DNA from: Nitrospirota bacterium
GTDB taxonomy: Bacteria; Nitrospirota; Nitrospiria; Nitrospirales; Nitrospiraceae
Direction of reading: 5' to 3'
Length of the DNA stretch: 64,000 nucleotides
Assembly: GCA_040755395.1 (NCBI GenBank)
Contig: JBFMAX010000001.1
Span: 496,001 to 560,000 of the forward strand
The notes under the pieces were generated by a model. That model was not told where the DNA came from. It saw only the letters and a list, made by a program, of their open reading frames with translations, and ran no database searches. Of this stretch, positions 13,388 through 20,354 are shown in pieces. How positions within the stretch are numbered: the stretch's first letter is position 1; each line of letters opens with the position of its first letter. The translations under genes and the position numbers were made by a program.

Positions 13388-14170
13388 ATGCTGCAGCTCG
13401 ATGAACGGCCCGTGCGCGCGGAGGCGCCGAGCGAATCCTCGGCGACGACCGTGTCTTCCTGGTCCGGCAAGGCCCGCGAGGATGCGGTGCAGCGGATGTT
13501 CACCGCGATCGCGCGGTTCTACGACCTCAACAATTCCCTGTTGAGTTTCGGCCTCCATCACCGGTGGAAGCACATCGCCGCCTCGTACGTGCCGGCCGTC
13601 GAGAACGGTCGCGCGGTCGACATCGGCGCCGGCACCGCCGACTTGGCGCTGTTGATCGAACGCCGCGTGGGACCGAAGGGCTACGTCGTGGCCACGGACC
13701 TGAACGACGCCATGCTTCGGGAAGGCGCGCGGAAGGTCGCCCGCCGGGGCTTGAGCCGTCGCATCCCCTGCCTGCGCGCGAACGCGGAGGACTTGGGCTT
13801 CAAGGACGAGAGCGTCGACGCCGTCACGGCCGGTTTCTGCGTGAGGAACGTCGGCAACCTGCCGCGGGCGCTCGGCGAGATCCATCGCGTGCTCAAGCCG
13901 GGCGGCCGGTTCGTGTGTTTGGAATTTTCCCAGCCGGTGCGGCCGTGGCTGCTGCGGCTCTATGATTGGTATTCGTTCCGGCTCCTGCCGCGCATCGGGA
14001 CGCTGGTCGCGCACGACAAGACCGGGGTGTATCACTATTTGCCGGCGTCGATTCGGACCTTTCCGGATCAGGAACGGTTCAGCGCGCTGCTGCGGGAAGC
14101 TGGCTTCCGGCAGGTGGAGTACCGCAACCTCAGCGGCGGTATCGTGGCGATCCACGTCGCGGTCAAATAG
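13388..14170 (+). CDS. menG: UbiE/MenG-type quinone C-methyltransferase
   Basis: 260 residues, a class I SAM-dependent methyltransferase of the UbiE/MenG (COQ5) family. It should carry out the last C-methylation of menaquinone (or ubiquinone) synthesis. Seen: VQRMFTAIARFYDLNNSLLSFGLHHRWK (shown in part) at about 36-63, the SAM-binding VDIGAGTADLALLI (about 78-91), a DLNDAMLREG acidic turn, and the family signature GFCVRNVGNLPRALGEIHRV (about 158-177), ending with a YRNLSGGIVAIHVAVK tail typical of the family. ATG 13388 was chosen by family length. It heads the gene run with the two radical SAM proteins and the PCP_red protein, but 73 bp of repeat separate it from the next gene. Confidence 0.9.
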   Translation: MLQLDERPVRAEAPSESSATTVSSWSGKAREDAVQRMFTAIARFYDLNNSLLSFGLHHRWKHIAASYVPAVENGRAVDIGAGTADLALLIERRVGPKGYVVATDLNDAMLREGARKVARRGLSRRIPCLRANAEDLGFKDESVDAVTAGFCVRNVGNLPRALGEIHRVLKPGGRFVCLEFSQPVRPWLLRLYDWYSFRLLPRIGTLVAHDKTGVYHYLPASIRTFPDQERFSALLREAGFRQVEYRNLSGGIVAIHVAVK

Positions 14171-14243: not shown

Positions 14244-15875
14244 ATGGGTATGAACTCCATCCTTTATATCTTTTTGCCCTGCAAGAAGGTCTATCCCATC
14301 GGGGTGACCTACCTGGCGGATTTTATCCATCGGCGGAAGCCGGAGGTGCGGCAGCGCATCCTGGACCTGTCGCTGTATCCGGAGAAAGAGCGGTCGCGCA
14401 TGCTGCGCGACGCGGCGTCGGCGTTTCGGCCGGACCTCGTCTGCTTTTCCTGGCGCGACATTCAGATTTTCTCTCCCCACGAAGGCGACGCCTCGCTGGA
14501 ACATGCCTTCAATTTTTATTTCGCGAGCAATCCGTTCAAGCGGATCGTGGCGTCGGTCGCGGGGCTGAAGCAGCTCTACCGGTATTACAGCCACATCCGC
14601 GCGAACCTGTCCTATCCCTGGCTGATCCGGCGGGAATTCCCGACAGCGCAGATCATGATCGGCGGCGGCGCCTTCACCGCGTTCGCCGATCAACTTATCG
14701 AAAAGCTGCCGGAAGGAACCATCGGCATTCTCGGCGAAGGCGAAGACGCGATTCTCAAGGTGGTCGAAGGGCAGCCGCTCGACGGCGAGCGCTATATCAT
14801 CCGCGACGGCAAGCAGATCCTGAAGGGCGAGCAGCGCGCCCCGGCTCTGTTGGATGCGCTGACGGTCGATCTCCCCTACCTGACCTCGATCTTCCCCCAG
14901 TACGCCGAATACCTCGGCGAGGCGATCGGCGTGCAGACCAAGCGGGGCTGCCCCTACGACTGCGCCTTTTGCCTCTATCCCTATATCGAGGGCAAGCGGG
15001 TCCGCTATCGACCGCCGGAGATGGTCGTCCGGGATCTCTCCCAGCACTATCACCAGTGGGGCGCGCGCCGGTTCTGGTTCACGGACGCCCAGTTCATCAC
15101 GGGCAAAGAAGCCTACCCCCAGTGCACGGAGATCCTGGAGCGGATCATCAAGGAGCAATTGGAGATCGAATGGTCCGGCTACATCCGAACGTCGCTGATC
15201 ACCCCGGACCTCGCCAAGCTCATGGTCCGTTCGGGGGTCGGGGACCTGGAAGTCGCCATCACCTCCGGGTCCCAGGAGGTCCTCAACAATCTCCACATGG
15301 GCTTCAAGCTGGAACGCCTCTATGACGGCTGCCGGTACCTGGCCGAAGCCGGGTTCAAGGGCAAGGTCATCCTGAATTACTCGCTGAATTCTCCGAAAGA
15401 AACCGAGAAAACTCTGCTCCAGAGCGTCGAGTCATACAAGGTGGTGGCCTCGATCCTGGGCGAAGACCGGGTCTTCCCGCTGATGTTCTTCCTGGGAATC
15501 CAACCGAACACCGACCTGGAGCACCGGCTCTTGGAGGAGGGCTATTTGTCCGCCGGCTACAATCCCCTCATGCTCACCCCGACCAGTATCCGGAAGCTGC
15601 TGTATAACCCGGCGCCGCTCAACAAGATCATCGCCAAGGCCTGCCTGGCCGCGTGGGAAAGAAAACATGGGAGTCGCGACCCTCGAGCGTGGACCGGCTC
15701 CCTCTCCCAGACCCGGTCCCAGGCCAAGTATGCCGACGACAATCTGATCCGCGGCATCGAAGGCAACTCCGGCCGCGACGCGCTCCTGACCCTGGAAGAA
15801 ATCCTCCGCTCCCGCCAATCATCTCGCTCTTCGACGCCTTCCCCTGAAAAAACGACAGCGACCTTGGCCGGTTAA
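14244..15875 (+). CDS. B12-binding-type radical SAM protein
   Basis: 543 residues. The N-terminus (about 5-200) looks like the cobalamin-binding half of the BchE/HpnJ-like class (LPCKKVYPIGVTYLADFI, a GGGAFTAF turn, GILGEGEDAILKVVEG). No DxHxxG cobalamin motif was found, so binding of B12 is uncertain. The radical SAM core has the iron-sulfur motif RGCPYDCAFC (about 233-242) and the later conserved WFTDAQFITGK. The C-terminal 50 residues are low-complexity and Ser/Thr/Arg-rich. Such enzymes often methylate or cyclise lipids or tetrapyrroles. Downstream lie PCP_red-domain genes, which hints at a tetrapyrrole-linked role; the substrate is unknown. Confidence 0.85.
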   Translation: MGMNSILYIFLPCKKVYPIGVTYLADFIHRRKPEVRQRILDLSLYPEKERSRMLRDAASAFRPDLVCFSWRDIQIFSPHEGDASLEHAFNFYFASNPFKRIVASVAGLKQLYRYYSHIRANLSYPWLIRREFPTAQIMIGGGAFTAFADQLIEKLPEGTIGILGEGEDAILKVVEGQPLDGERYIIRDGKQILKGEQRAPALLDALTVDLPYLTSIFPQYAEYLGEAIGVQTKRGCPYDCAFCLYPYIEGKRVRYRPPEMVVRDLSQHYHQWGARRFWFTDAQFITGKEAYPQCTEILERIIKEQLEIEWSGYIRTSLITPDLAKLMVRSGVGDLEVAITSGSQEVLNNLHMGFKLERLYDGCRYLAEAGFKGKVILNYSLNSPKETEKTLLQSVESYKVVASILGEDRVFPLMFFLGIQPNTDLEHRLLEEGYLSAGYNPLMLTPTSIRKLLYNPAPLNKIIAKACLAAWERKHGSRDPRAWTGSLSQTRSQAKYADDNLIRGIEGNSGRDALLTLEEILRSRQSSRSSTPSPEKTTATLAG

Positions 15876-15910: not shown

Positions 15911-16009
15911 GAGCGGGTGACACTGGGCTGGGGCCCGGGCACGCGCAGCGGGGCCCCACACCGGGCGGGGTGCGAGCATGCCCGGGCTGCCCGGTGGCAG
16001 GACCCGCTC
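15911..16009. ncRNA. candidate structured RNA with nested stems
   Basis: A 99-nt segment folds on paper into an ordered structure. P1 pairs GAGCGGGT (15911-15918) with ACCCGCTC (16002-16009). P2 pairs CACTGGGC (15921-15928) with GCCCGGTG (15989-15996). Inside P2 are two hairpins: TGGGGCCC/GGGCCCCA (15929-15936 with 15951-15958) and CCGGGC/GCCCGG (15961-15966 with 15980-15985). The result is a closed multi-branch junction. It is not followed by a T-run and does not match a riboswitch or tRNA that I know. It lies upstream of the promoter proposed for the next gene, so it could be a separate RNA or the 3' structure of the preceding transcript. Confidence 0.45.
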
Positions 16010-16026: not shown

Positions 16027-16056
16027 TTGCAATCCCCGCAATTCCGGTGCTATCAT
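16027..16056 (+). promoter_or_regulatory. sigma-70-type promoter of the Usp-PCP_red operon
   Basis: TTGCAA (16027-16032), an 18-bp spacer and TATCAT (16051-16056), about 90 bp upstream of the start at 16147. Confidence 0.5.
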
Positions 16057-16146: not shown

Positions 16147-18243
16147 ATGTACAAGACGATCTATATCCCGGTCGACAATTCGGACCATTCCAACATGGCT
16201 GTTGACCTCGGGATTCAGCTCGCCAAAACCTTCGGCTCCAAGATCGTGGGCAGCCACGTCTATGCGGCCAAGATGCATGACAAACGGTTCAAGCAGATGG
16301 AGGCCGGCCTTCCCGAGGAATACCACGACGAAAAGGAGCTGGACCGGCAGCGGCAGATCCACGACTCCCTGATCACCCGCGGGCTCCAGATCATCACCGA
16401 CTCCTACCTGGATTACGTGGACAAGAAATGCTCCGAAGCCAACCTGCCCCTGGAGCGGCGCTCACTGGAGGGACGGAACTGGAAGGTCTTGGCCGAAGAT
16501 ATCAATACCAACGGCTATGACCTGGTCGTCATGGGGGCGCTGGGGGTCGGAGCCGTCAAGGACAGCGTCATCGGGAGCAACACCGAACGGGTCGCCCGCC
16601 GCGTCCGTAATTCCGACATGCTCATCGTCAAGCAGACGCAGCCCATGACGGGCGGGAAGATCGTCGTGGCAGTGGACGGCAGTCCCTATTCCTTCGGCGG
16701 GCTCATGACCGGCATCGCCTTGGGCAAGGCGCTGAACAAACCGGTCGAAGCCATCTCGGCGTTCGATCCCTACTTCCACTACGCGGCCTTCCACAGCATC
16801 TCCGGGGTGCTGAACGAAGAAGCCGGCAAGGTCTTTCGCTTCAAGGAGCAGGAAAAGCTGCACGAGGAAATCATCGACAGCGGACTGGCCAAGATTTACC
16901 AGTCCCATCTGGATATCTCGCGCGAACTGGCCCAGGCCGAGCAGACCGACATCAAGACCACCCTGCTGGACGGCAAGGCTTTCGAAAAGATCATTCAATA
17001 CGTCCGCAAGGAGATTCCGTGGCTCCTCATCGTCGGCCGGATCGGCGTCCACAGCGACGACGACATGGACATCGGAAGCAACACCGAGAACCTCCTGCGC
17101 AGCTCCCCCTGCAACATTCTGATCTCCAACCGCAAGCATGTGCCGCCGATCGACACCCAGGCCGAGTACACCATCGCCTGGACCGAGGAAGCCCTGCGTC
17201 GCATGGAGAAGATTCCGGTCTTCGCCCGCGGCGTGGCCAAAACGGCCATCCACCGCTATGCGATCGAGAAGGGTCACACCATTATCAGCAACACGGTCGT
17301 GGACGCCGCCGTCGGCCACATCCTGCCGAAGGGCGCCATGGAAGCGATGAAGGCGCTCGGGGCGGGGCTCGATGCGTCCGGGATCGATCGCAACAAAATG
17401 CAGGCGGACGACGAAGTGGCGAAGGACCTCATGGGCTCCACCCTGAGCGGGATGATGACCGAGATCGTGCAGGAGAAGCCGAAAGTCAGCGCGGGCACGC
17501 AGGCGTATCTGGACCGGATGAGCCAGAACTATTTCGTCTGCGACGGCTGCGGCTACATCGGCAAGGGTGACACGCCGGTCAAGTGCCCGGTCTGCGGCGC
17601 GACGGGGGATCGGTTCAAGCAGGTGGACAAGAGCATTTTCGAGGCGGCGGCCAGAGCCGAGGGCGGGCTGGAAACCGATGTGGCTTACGACGACGTGCCG
17701 ATGCAATGGACCAAAGACGCGAAGGAAGCCATCCGGGCGGTACCGGCCGGGTTCCAACGTCGCCGGGCGAAGGCGAAGATCGAGAAGAGCGCGAGAAAGC
17801 TCGGCATGACCACGATCACGCTGGAGTTCGCCGCCCCCATGATCAAGGAAGCCGCGGCGGAGGACTATACCCCCATCTTCGCCAACAAAGGCACCGGCAC
17901 GGCGCCGGCCGCGGAAGCCAAACTGGCGGCGGCGGAAACCCGGGAGCCCGGCCCGGCCAAGAGCGACAACGGCAATGGAAACGGCCGGACGGAGCCGGCC
18001 TCGCCGTACACCTGGACGCCCGAGGCTCAGGCCAGGCTGGAGCGGGCGCCCGAAGGCTTCATGCGCGACTGCACCCGCGCGCTGATCCAAAAACACGCCG
18101 ATAAGATCGGGACGACCGTGATCACGCTTGAAGTCGCCAACGAGGGAATCGAACAGGCCAAGGGCGTCATGCAAGAAGCGATGAAGACCGGCAACCTGAA
18201 AGACATCATCGCCAACCTCACAGGCAAAACTACCTCAAGCTGA
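16147..18243 (+). CDS. tandem universal-stress protein with rubredoxin-like knuckle and three PCP_red domains
   Basis: 698 residues. Two Usp domains (about 1-155 and 160-330) each end in the nucleotide-binding type G-S-N-T-E motif (SVIGSNTERVARRV and MDIGSNTENLLRSSPCNILI). A first PCP_red-like domain follows (about 338-385: AWTEEALRRMEKIPVFARGV). Next is a rubredoxin-like zinc or iron knuckle with C-D-G-C (about 464) and C-P-V-C (about 479). A second PCP_red domain (about 518-570: QWTKDAKEAIRAVPAGFQRR) and a third (about 620-670: TWTPEAQARLERAPEGFM) complete the protein. PCP_red is otherwise known from the C-terminus of the BchB/ChlB protochlorophyllide reductase subunit. ATG 16147 follows GAAGGAGG. 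This domain mix suggests a stress or redox sensor bound to a tetrapyrrole or metal cofactor; the function is unknown. Confidence 0.9.
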   Translation: MYKTIYIPVDNSDHSNMAVDLGIQLAKTFGSKIVGSHVYAAKMHDKRFKQMEAGLPEEYHDEKELDRQRQIHDSLITRGLQIITDSYLDYVDKKCSEANLPLERRSLEGRNWKVLAEDINTNGYDLVVMGALGVGAVKDSVIGSNTERVARRVRNSDMLIVKQTQPMTGGKIVVAVDGSPYSFGGLMTGIALGKALNKPVEAISAFDPYFHYAAFHSISGVLNEEAGKVFRFKEQEKLHEEIIDSGLAKIYQSHLDISRELAQAEQTDIKTTLLDGKAFEKIIQYVRKEIPWLLIVGRIGVHSDDDMDIGSNTENLLRSSPCNILISNRKHVPPIDTQAEYTIAWTEEALRRMEKIPVFARGVAKTAIHRYAIEKGHTIISNTVVDAAVGHILPKGAMEAMKALGAGLDASGIDRNKMQADDEVAKDLMGSTLSGMMTEIVQEKPKVSAGTQAYLDRMSQNYFVCDGCGYIGKGDTPVKCPVCGATGDRFKQVDKSIFEAAARAEGGLETDVAYDDVPMQWTKDAKEAIRAVPAGFQRRRAKAKIEKSARKLGMTTITLEFAAPMIKEAAAEDYTPIFANKGTGTAPAAEAKLAAAETREPGPAKSDNGNGNGRTEPASPYTWTPEAQARLERAPEGFMRDCTRALIQKHADKIGTTVITLEVANEGIEQAKGVMQEAMKTGNLKDIIANLTGKTTSS

Positions 18244-18342
18244 AATGAGAAATGTGGAATTGTCCGAAGAAACGTTTCAAATTTTCCATTTCGCATTCCT
18301 AATTTCTAATTGCTAATTCCTAATTCCACATTGTCCCTAACC
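18244..18342. repeat. dispersed repeat, family C (AATGTGGAAT / ATTCCACATT)
   Basis: AT-rich inverted repeat: GAAATGAGAAATGTGGAATT on the left and CTAATTCCTAATTCCACATT on the right. It fills the gap between two genes of the PCP_red cluster. Other copies lie at 19733, 48838, 49374, 50041, 50132, 50608 and 56686. Confidence 0.8.
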
Positions 18343-18343
18343 C

Positions 18344-19732
18344 ATGGGTAAGTCGCTGCCGATCATCAATGTCCCGCAACAGCTCGCGGGGATGCTTGGC
18401 TCGCTCGGAGAGCAGATCTCGCGGTTCGTGCCCGCTCAGGGTACATCCGACGTCCCCCGCGACGGCCGGACCGTGGACGACTTCAAGCCCTACCTCGTCG
18501 CGCTCAATCTCACCAAGCGCTGCAACCTCAAATGCGCGCACTGTTATCTCGACGCCACCACCAAAGCCGGCGGCGGCTCCGATGAGCTGACCACCGAGGA
18601 ATGTTTCCGGCTCATCGACCAGATCGCCGAGGTCAACAACGGCTGCCTGCTGGTCATCACGGGAGGGGAACCGCTCACCCGTCCCGACATCCTGGACATC
18701 GCCCGGCACGCGGTGAAGCTCGGCTTCATGGTCGTCTTCGGCACCAATGGGATGCTGATCAACGACCGGATGGCCAAAGAGCTGGTCGAGATCGGCGTCA
18801 TGGGCGTGGGGATCAGCATCGATTCGCTCGATCCGCTGAAACACGACAAATTCCGCGGCCTGCCCGGCGCGTGGAAAGGCGCGGTGGCGGGGATCGAAGC
18901 TTGCAAGCGGAACGGGCTCCAGTTTCAGATCCATTTCAGCACCCAGCCCATGAATTACAAAGAACTGCCGGACGTGATCGAATGGGCGCACACCCTCGGC
19001 GCCAGGGTGTTGAACGTCTTCTTCATGGTGTGCACCGGCCGCGGCGAAGAACTGACGGACATCACCCCGGCCCAGTACGAGGAAGTGCTGGGGTATCTCG
19101 TCGAATGCCAGGACAGGTACAAGGACATGCTCGTGCGGGCCCGCTGCGCGCCGCATTTCAAGCGGCTGGCGTACGAGAAGGACCCCAACTCCCCCATCAC
19201 CAAGGCGACCGGCTATATGGGCGGCGGATGCCTGGCCGGCACCAACTACGCCCGCGTGACGCCGAACGGCGAGCTGACGCCTTGCCCCTACATGCCGCTC
19301 TCGGCTGGCAACGTCCGCGAGAAGAGCTTCGTCGAGCTGTGGGAGAAGTCGGACATTTTCGATTCGTTCCGGTACCCGCACCTCAAAGGCAAATGCGGCG
19401 ACTGCGAATACAGCGAGATTTGCGGCGGCTGCCGCGCGCGGCCCTACGTGGACCACGGCGACTGGCTCGACGAAGACCAGTGGTGCCTCTATACGCCGAA
19501 GGGGGGCGCGAAGGTGCGCGTCGCCTTCAACACGCCGGAGGAGACGGCCGTCGAATGGGACGAAGCGGCGCAGACCAGGCTCAACCGCATTCCCTACTTC
19601 CTCCGCGCCATGGTGAAAAAGGGCGTCGAGCGCCACGCCCGGGAACAGGGCATCCCGGTCGTCACCGTCGAGCTGATGGAAGAGCTGCGCAAGAAACGGT
19701 TCGGGAACGACGCGCCCGTCTTCAAAATCTAA
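18344..19732 (+). CDS. radical SAM/SPASM protein (AhbC/AhbD/NirJ-like) with C-terminal PCP_red domain
   Basis: 462 residues. The radical SAM cluster motif is CNLKCAHC (about 60-67), followed by ITGGEPLTRPDILDI and GISIDSLDPLKHDKF. A SPASM region (about 295-385) has many cysteines, ending in CGDCEYSEICGGCRARPYV, very close to the heme-synthesis enzymes AhbC, AhbD and NirJ. The last 60 residues are a PCP_red domain (about 402-450: WDEAAQTRLNRIPYFLRAMV). The AhbC/AhbD/NirJ group modifies tetrapyrrole side chains. The PCP_red tail links it to the upstream Usp-PCP_red gene, 100 bp away, and to a CopD-like membrane protein downstream. A tetrapyrrole-modifying role is likely; the exact reaction is not known. 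Confidence 0.9.
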   Translation: MGKSLPIINVPQQLAGMLGSLGEQISRFVPAQGTSDVPRDGRTVDDFKPYLVALNLTKRCNLKCAHCYLDATTKAGGGSDELTTEECFRLIDQIAEVNNGCLLVITGGEPLTRPDILDIARHAVKLGFMVVFGTNGMLINDRMAKELVEIGVMGVGISIDSLDPLKHDKFRGLPGAWKGAVAGIEACKRNGLQFQIHFSTQPMNYKELPDVIEWAHTLGARVLNVFFMVCTGRGEELTDITPAQYEEVLGYLVECQDRYKDMLVRARCAPHFKRLAYEKDPNSPITKATGYMGGGCLAGTNYARVTPNGELTPCPYMPLSAGNVREKSFVELWEKSDIFDSFRYPHLKGKCGDCEYSEICGGCRARPYVDHGDWLDEDQWCLYTPKGGAKVRVAFNTPEETAVEWDEAAQTRLNRIPYFLRAMVKKGVERHAREQGIPVVTVELMEELRKKRFGNDAPVFKI

Positions 19733-19827
19733 ATGTGGAATGAGGAATTAGAAATGAGGAATAGCCGTCCGCGAGAATTTCGCGATCATTCCACATTCCT
19801 AATTCCACATTCCTAATTCTTCCACCA
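19733..19827. repeat. dispersed repeat, family C, long hairpin form
   Basis: AATGTGGAATGAGGAATTAG on the left and ATTCCACATTCCTAATTCC on the right can pair over most of the gap. A second small hairpin, CGCGAGAATTTCGCG, lies in the loop. It separates the radical SAM gene from the CopD-like gene. Confidence 0.8.
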
Positions 19828-19829
19828 GA

Positions 19830-20354
19830 ATGGACGCACTTCAAAGTCTCTTCACCGACATCAATCAGCTCATTCCCATCGTCAACCATTGGCTTCATCT
19901 TCTCTCCGCCGTCATCTGGATCGGCGGGCTGGCCTTTCTCGTCATGGCCGTGACGCCGGGCCTGCAGAAGACCGTCCCCAAGGAATACATCAAACCCATC
20001 ACCGACACGTTCTATAAGCAGTACAAGAAGGTCGCCGGCGCGCTGTTGGTCGTCCTGTTGTTCACCGGCGGCATCAACCTGCACTACGTCAACCAATTGC
20101 TGCTGTCGCAGACCGGCCAGGCCGTCAATCACCACGCGAAATATCTCGCGGTCTTCTTCATCAAGCTCTTCCTCGTCCTCTGCCTCCTGACCCTCTTCCT
20201 TTACACCGTCATCTTCCAGTCCAACCCGGGCGCCGAAGCCGAGGAAGAAGACAAGGAAGAGGGCTACGAAGCGATCCCTTACCAACGGGCGGCCCTGTGG
20301 ATCGGCTTCTTCATCATCCTCTGCGCCGCCGCCATGAAGCATCTGCACCAGTAA
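19830..20354 (+). CDS. CopD-like integral membrane protein
   Basis: 174 residues with four predicted membrane spans: around NHWLHLLSAVIWIGGLAFLV (about 20-42), a second at GALLVVLLFTGGINLHYV (about 70-88), a third at LAVFFIKLFLVLCLLTLFLY (about 110-130), and a last one at ALWIGFFIILCAAAMKHLHQ. His residues next to the spans (NHWLH, NHHAK, MKHLHQ) and the WIGG motif resemble CopD/YcnJ-type and related heme-binding membrane proteins. It is the last gene of the radical SAM/PCP_red run and may anchor or supply electrons to that system. An acidic loop (AEAEEEDKEEGYE) lies between spans 3 and 4. The start at 19830 has only a weak ribosome site because a repeat precedes it. Confidence 0.75.
   Translation: MDALQSLFTDINQLIPIVNHWLHLLSAVIWIGGLAFLVMAVTPGLQKTVPKEYIKPITDTFYKQYKKVAGALLVVLLFTGGINLHYVNQLLLSQTGQAVNHHAKYLAVFFIKLFLVLCLLTLFLYTVIFQSNPGAEAEEEDKEEGYEAIPYQRAALWIGFFIILCAAAMKHLHQ

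Follow-up and report, generated by a model that had tools for sequence, protein, structure and literature searches.

A radical SAM–PCP_red module of Nitrospirota and anammox bacteria that co-occurs with a cytochrome bd-like oxidase

Background

Terminal oxidases are served by dedicated heme-modifying enzymes such as CtaA and CtaB (CyoE). Among radical S-adenosylmethionine (SAM) enzymes, AhbD and NirJ alter side chains of iron tetrapyrroles (reviewed in PMC7242693). For Nitrospira, which is without a canonical heme-copper oxidase, a bd-like protein of uncertain chemistry is considered to act as terminal oxidase, and a related cluster of bd-like, cytochrome and NxrC-like genes is highly conserved among Nitrospina and anammox bacteria (PMC6606698); the oxidases of Nitrospirales have been assigned to OR-N1/OR-N2 CydAA' (PMC12342949). 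The present analysis concerns a window of 64,000 nucleotides from a Nitrospirota bacterium (assembly GCA_040755395.1, contig JBFMAX010000001.1, positions 496,001 to 560,000), which contains three adjacent genes coding for a Usp/PCP_red protein, a radical SAM/PCP_red enzyme and a CopD-like membrane protein. No earlier description of this PCP_red module was found in the literature searched, of which coverage was partial; the same searches brought up no work on PCP_red proteins outside phototrophs, nor any that connects radical SAM, heme synthesis, anammox and Nitrospira.

Co-occurrence and linkage with the oxidase

For a common set of 197 Nitrospirota genomes, presence and absence of each protein were transcribed by hand from search listings and then counted; the counts are uncorrected for relatedness. 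When the bd-like protein of distant Nitrospirota (loci L079-L081) served as query, 92 genomes gave a match. The radical SAM/PCP_red enzyme and this oxidase occurred together in 90 genomes and were jointly absent from 103, with two genomes displaying the oxidase only (G017 and G186) and two the enzyme only (phi 0.96). G160, G174 and G182 were counted as enzyme carriers despite a lower search score, since full-length genes are present in their loci (L068, L091 and L069, respectively). The association persisted by genus (32 with both, 2 with the enzyme only, none with the oxidase only and 65 with neither) and outside class Nitrospiria (15 with both, 2 with one only and 103 with neither; p=2.9e-17). 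Some single genera were even split, one species having both and another neither (G154 versus G141, G159 versus G116 and G177 versus G161), which suggests that the two were repeatedly gained or lost together.

A similar picture emerged in other phyla. Among 292 Planctomycetota, where the enzyme was called when the PCP_red end was present, the score exceeded 480 bits and the match reached model position ~407-410, the oxidase was found in 34 genomes and the enzyme in 32, all of them included in the 34; two had the oxidase only and 258 neither. Likewise, 45 of the 46 non-Nitrospirota genomes behind the enzyme loci, which belong to several phyla, encode the bd-like oxidase. Anammox bacteria are anaerobes, and a common aerobic lifestyle therefore does not explain the link. 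Taken as a whole, a functional link between the module and the bd-like oxidase is very likely real.

Physical linkage was examined by a contig scan with eleven distant enzymes, which yielded 80 loci from anammox Planctomycetota (Brocadia, Kuenenia, Jettenia, Scalindua and Loosdrechtia), Nitrospinota, Rokubacteria, deltaproteobacterial metagenome-assembled genomes (MAGs) and other Nitrospirota. A bd-like gene occurred within the fetched flank in 15 of these 80 loci (Nitrospirota, deltaproteobacterial MAGs and Planctomycetota, including Scalindua), where less than one was expected by chance according to our own arithmetic (~15 kb per locus, one to two bd-like genes per ~3 Mb). Several Planctomycetota genomes carried enzyme and oxidase on one contig with ~6-11 kb between them (e.g. 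G300:C345, G303:C62, G513:C34 and G534:C12). In the distant Nitrospirota loci L079-L081, the Usp and radical SAM-PCP_red genes adjoin a gene resembling cytochrome bd subunit I, in a cluster that also comprises c-type cytochromes, a NarJ-like chaperone and subunits of the nitrite oxidoreductase (NXR)/dimethyl sulfoxide reductase type.

The bd-like partner at L079:6635-8320 scored 56.4 bits against PF01654 (cytochrome bd subunit I, cut-off 26.2), and the profile of the bd-like oxidase matched CydA structures; its OR-N/CydAA' label is taken from the literature on Nitrospirales (PMC12342949; PMC6606698). Four bd-like genes are present in the genome of the window, two in L084 and two in L083. Three bd-like proteins (L079:6635-8320, L095:11259-12950 and L104:11237-12919) display Met (AQTM, AQLM) at a position where most others have His (AQLH), and which aligns with an N-terminal His of canonical CydA.

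Domain composition of the module

The genes and domains of the window for which coordinates are given here lie on the forward strand. The first gene (16147..18243) encodes a protein of 698 residues, for which a Pfam scan and a motif check gave the order tandem Usp, PCP_red, rubredoxin-like, PCP_red and PCP_red. The universal stress protein (Usp) pair reached 106 bits with PF00582; domain 1 (16147..16629, residues 1-161) is the best PF00582 stretch and has its ATP motif at residue 130, and domain 2 (16648..17136, limits approximate) is the second stretch, with the motif at residue 297. Both belong to the ATP-binding type, the motif G2xG9xG[S/T] being intact in each, and a fold search matched the pair to the tandem Usp folds 3ab8 and 3cis. 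They are followed by PCP_red domain 1 (17179..17310, 54.3 bits), a rubredoxin-like (RUBY_RBDX) knuckle (17533..17619, 27.7 bits for a cut-off of 26.5, CxxC at residues 465 and 480), PCP_red domain 2 (17707..17829, 41.9 bits) and PCP_red domain 3 (18013..18138, 37.4 bits). A longer open reading frame (ORF) could start from GTG at 15970; the fetched homologues start at the Met encoded at 16147. The structure model of this protein was weak between domains (predicted template modelling score 0.49), and no domain arrangement is therefore claimed.

The second gene (18344..19732) codes for the enzyme of 462 residues, whose radical SAM and SPASM domains were clearly recognized (PF04055, 88 bits; PF13186, 39.5 bits). 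The CxxxCxxC cluster motif reads CNLKCAHC (residues 60-67, 18521..18544) and its cysteines are invariant in 36 homologues; the SPASM domain (19229..19408), carrying ligands of auxiliary iron-sulphur (Fe-S) clusters, displays conserved Cys 296, 314, 351, 354, 360, 363 and 381. Its best NCBIfam matches were NirJ2 (TIGR04055, 323.1 bits) and, second, AhbD (TIGR04545, 312.8 bits), both below the equivalog cut-off of 500; AhbC, NirJ1 and NirJ followed within the top six at 176-180 bits, and peptide maturases did not exceed 146 bits. PCP_red domain 4 forms the C-terminus (19556..19690, 64 bits) and aligned with the BchB C-terminal domain structures 2kru (E=3.6e-7), 2xdq and 3aek as well as with stand-alone Asr4154 (2l09).

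All four PCP_red domains thus passed the 32.5-bit cut-off of PF08369, with whole-protein scores of 112.3 bits for the Usp/PCP_red protein and 59.6 bits for the enzyme. The genome of the window contains 12 PCP_red matches in five proteins, 11 of them above cut-off; in 14 control genomes, matches were restricted to Synechococcus. The nitrogenase-like core of BchB/ChlB is missing: matches to these models scored 67-69 bits against cut-offs of 490-509 and were restricted to the C-terminal end (positions 455-529 of ~512-535).

The third gene (19830..20354) encodes a protein of 174 residues with about four hydrophobic segments according to hydropathy. Its resemblance to CopD stayed below family thresholds (PF05425, 24.3 bits, E=4.3e-5, cut-off 32.1; NF033808, 37.4 bits against 195).

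These results uphold much of the sequence-only reading of the window, which had proposed two Usp domains, a rubredoxin-like knuckle and three PCP_red domains for the first gene, an AhbC/AhbD/NirJ-like radical SAM-SPASM enzyme with a fourth PCP_red domain for the second, and PCP_red as a domain known from BchB/ChlB C-termini in a context where, as confirmed here, photosynthesis genes are absent. It had made its case depend on significant PCP_red scores, which were obtained, and on a gene order kept beyond this genome (see below). The CopD-like assignment is weaker.

Gene order across relatives

The trio was found adjacent and on one strand in every Nitrospirales locus fetched from families f1, f2 and f3 (19 loci), often with overlapping or almost touching genes where spacing was measured. 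Family f4 (L057) displayed only a divergent radical SAM-PCP_red gene, the other two trio genes being missing. Over the 197 Nitrospirota, the tandem-Usp protein and the enzyme occurred together in 90 genomes, with 2 and 1 alone and 104 with neither.

Further PCP_red proteins are scattered over the genomes. One with four PCP_red domains is encoded by a separate gene in the genome of the window (L059); in L065, L068, L069 and L091, the corresponding gene stands between those for the radical SAM enzyme and the CopD-like protein. Another has 163 residues and two PCP_red domains (L061:7797-8288); in the genome of the window its gene is located two genes ahead of a bd-like one, an order repeated in four relatives (L085-L088). 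Because of these two placements, inside the module loci of relatives and near the bd-like gene, the scattered PCP_red proteins appear to be parts of one system.

Other neighbours were recorded. A protein with two PCP_red domains (L060:8951-10797, genome of the window) adjoins an ApbC/MrpORP-type Fe-S carrier and sulfate-assimilation genes, the latter assigned by eye from sequence starts, and an ApbC-like gene is near the module in the Rokubacteria loci L166, L172 and L174. A protein family with no Pfam or NCBIfam match is encoded downstream of the radical SAM-PCP_red gene (L077:10560-11291, Met/His-rich near its end, L076:10888-11649, L078:8051-8785 and L073:8173-8826), and members occur in 16 of the 80 distant loci. 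By eye, a hemE-like gene was seen near the module in L068 (L068:12207-13244) and a hemL-like gene directly upstream of it in L078 (L078:11244-12533).

Proposed function and alternatives

The trio is probably assembly or cofactor machinery of the bd-like oxidase. Our main reading, to which we attribute a probability of roughly 0.5, is that it forms a dedicated maturation module for the Nitrospira/anammox-type bd-like oxidase (OR-N, CydAA') and operates by a tetrapyrrole mechanism. It is proposed that the enzyme makes, modifies or inserts the tetrapyrrole of the oxidase, or otherwise matures its active site. Given the kinship with NirJ2/AhbD and a domain otherwise known from the end of a protochlorophyllide-binding subunit, the simplest interpretation is a specialised heme-type cofactor step for this oxidase. 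Heme or tetrapyrrole involvement, already put forward in the sequence-only reading, is still the best reading of the module, and heme chemistry is the best mechanism we can offer for it, at about even odds; we infer both a heme-type tetrapyrrole as substrate and a product ending in the oxidase.

In such a mechanism, the PCP_red domains would hold the tetrapyrrole, by homology to the end of the protochlorophyllide-binding subunit BchB/ChlB, and the AhbD/NirJ-type enzyme would alter a side chain of this (iron) tetrapyrrole or ready it for insertion. Gating of the reaction or electron supply may be the task of the ATP-binding Usp pair and the rubredoxin knuckle, and the CopD-like protein could hand the product to the membrane oxidase or assemble it there. 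A bolder and more doubtful extension is that a modified heme, as yet undescribed, is present in the oxidase of Nitrospira, Nitrospinota and anammox bacteria and is produced by a radical SAM enzyme with a tetrapyrrole-holding domain from the chlorophyll pathway. If true, a new type of heme would exist, together with an enzyme dedicated to its synthesis.

Two motifs, CAPH..R and, at the end of SPASM, GGCRARA, are common to the enzyme and AhbD-like paralogues, one of them from the same genome. Among the outlying Nitrospirota that have the enzyme, most carry a separate AhbD-like match (two matches each), and a ferrochelatase is present in the genome of the window; the enzyme is thus not simply a heme b synthase. 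Long branches were obtained in a quick tree of radical SAM rows, for which reason monophyly of the PCP_red-bearing enzymes is not claimed. Among Nitrospirales, four f3 genomes (G026, G029, G032 and G035) gave no ferrochelatase (PF00762) match and no second AhbD-like match was listed for them, one of the four being a single contig of 100% completeness; f1 genomes have a ferrochelatase match.

Several observations weigh against an oxidase-directed heme step. The oxidase is not adjacent to the module in the genome of the window (C1:242946 versus C1:512147), G042 and G048 carry the enzyme with no oxidase match, and G485 and G527 carry the oxidase and no enzyme, possibly through incompleteness. The literature searched did not disclose which heme OR-N oxidases contain, and the co-occurring cytochromes or NXR-like proteins could be the true client. 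Moreover, the closest folds of the enzyme are the peptide-modifying SPASM enzymes PqqE, SuiB and SkfB, together with anSME, and this feeds the main rival, namely that a protein rather than a heme is modified: the enzyme would introduce a cross-link or other change in a bd-like subunit or in a cytochrome associated with it, PCP_red and Usp serving as scaffold or recognition elements. The co-occurrence with the oxidase is just as compatible with this alternative. Yet the profile ranking favours heme enzymes (NirJ2 323 and AhbD 313 against at most 146 bits for peptide maturases), the other known setting of PCP_red is a tetrapyrrole enzyme, and no precursor peptide gene was noticed, though none was looked for. 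Peptide modification is therefore considered unlikely, albeit the strongest of the alternatives.

The NXR-like genes that share the cluster in L079-L081 and others also raise the question whether the module matures this NXR-type molybdenum enzyme instead of the oxidase. Such a role is improbable, because NXR-like proteins follow the enzyme far less closely (phi 0.65 compared with 0.96; outside the class, 7 with both, 10 with the enzyme only and 3 with NXR-like only) and, in deltaproteobacterial loci, enzyme and oxidase are linked while the fetched flank has no NXR-like gene. Slightly better placed, but still rather improbable, is an oxygen or heme stress sensor in which Usp and rubredoxin sense low oxygen and tune the respiratory chain, the radical SAM protein being regulatory or handling damage. 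The tandem ATP-type Usp would suit it, as would the rise of Usp proteins at low oxygen in Nitrospira marina (PMC8115632). However, it is the radical SAM-PCP_red enzyme that stays invariant from phylum to phylum, its catalytic cysteines being kept, and the flanks fetched for the anammox loci yielded no tandem-Usp gene. The co-occurrence also follows one oxidase family and not aerobic life, as the anaerobic anammox bacteria illustrate.

Neighbouring genes in the window

Upstream of the trio lie mpqE (13391..14170), coding for a methyl-plastoquinone methyltransferase (NF052510, 402.7 bits, cut-off 335), and a gene for a B12-binding radical SAM protein (14244..15875) closest to the Slr0320 family (NF045585, 444 bits, below the cut-off of 775). 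The sequence-only reading had rightly placed a methyltransferase and a B12-type radical SAM protein before the trio; its name MenG is better replaced by MpqE, and its wider set of five genes resolves into two modules, of which only the trio is the conserved PCP_red system, while the main partner, the bd-like oxidase encoded elsewhere, had been missed.

MpqE and the Slr0320-like protein form a separate unit, adjacent in many families and found together in 92 of the 197 Nitrospirota (4 with MpqE only, 101 with neither). They stand directly upstream of the trio in f1 and f2 and are not in f3 loci; uvrA is divergent beside mpqE in most f1/f2 loci. MpqE followed the PCP_red enzyme less closely (phi 0.65) than the bd-like oxidase did (phi 0.96), and outside class Nitrospiria the pair and the PCP_red module were unlinked (2 with both, 15 and 17 alone; p = 1.0), so that the five-gene block is a neighbourhood of two units. 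One methyl-plastoquinone operon of all five genes, which the arrangement in f1 and f2 might have suggested, is thus rejected by distribution and by the f3 trio standing without mpqE; we regard it as the least credible of the alternatives, with hardly any chance of being correct. The pair itself is a candidate for a step in which the ring of methyl-plastoquinone, or in cyanobacteria that of plastoquinone, is methylated. Methyl-plastoquinone occurs in Nitrospira (PMC12324825), and a Slr0320 mutant displayed slow QA-to-QB transfer, for which its authors suggested plastoquinone methylation (PMC8065906).

An Rfam scan of the window gave no match, and simple promoter and terminator scans were uninformative, the one promoter-like site (16027-16056) being no more than chance would produce. 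Between 22400 and 24850, the ORF list shows no clear long genes, and peptides such as SPLPWRERGRVRG and FKRGETSAREPRRDAERRNAGCGKRANQ recur in the small ORFs of this stretch, which suggests a repeated non-coding element.

Significance and comparison with known systems

This near-exceptionless partner set is the first named candidate for cofactor synthesis or assembly of the bd-like oxidase, and the questions of which heme the oxidase uses and how it is built are now directly approachable by experiment. A domain whose annotation is confined to chlorophyll synthesis would also gain a role beyond photosynthesis.

Four described systems bear comparison. AhbD (heme b synthase) and NirJ/NirJ2 (heme d1 pathway) have the same radical SAM plus SPASM architecture, provide the best profile matches and, through the AhbD-like paralogues, common motifs; the enzyme differs by its extra C-terminal PCP_red domain(s), its scores below cut-off and its tracking of the bd-like oxidase. 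The dark-operative protochlorophyllide reductase subunit BchB/ChlB carries at its C-terminus the homologous domain of ~50 residues (2kru, 2xdq and 3aek). In contrast to the module, it has the nitrogenase-like BchN/BchB core, whereas PCP_red is repeated in the module and fused to Usp or radical SAM, in a host that is non-phototrophic by context. The quinone-linked Slr0320 and MpqE genes are adjacent to the module in the window, yet independently distributed. Finally, CtaA/CtaB (CyoE) offer an analogy, that of a heme-modifying enzyme dedicated to a terminal oxidase, but they are unrelated proteins, and the module would rely on radical SAM chemistry and serve a bd-like rather than a heme-copper oxidase.

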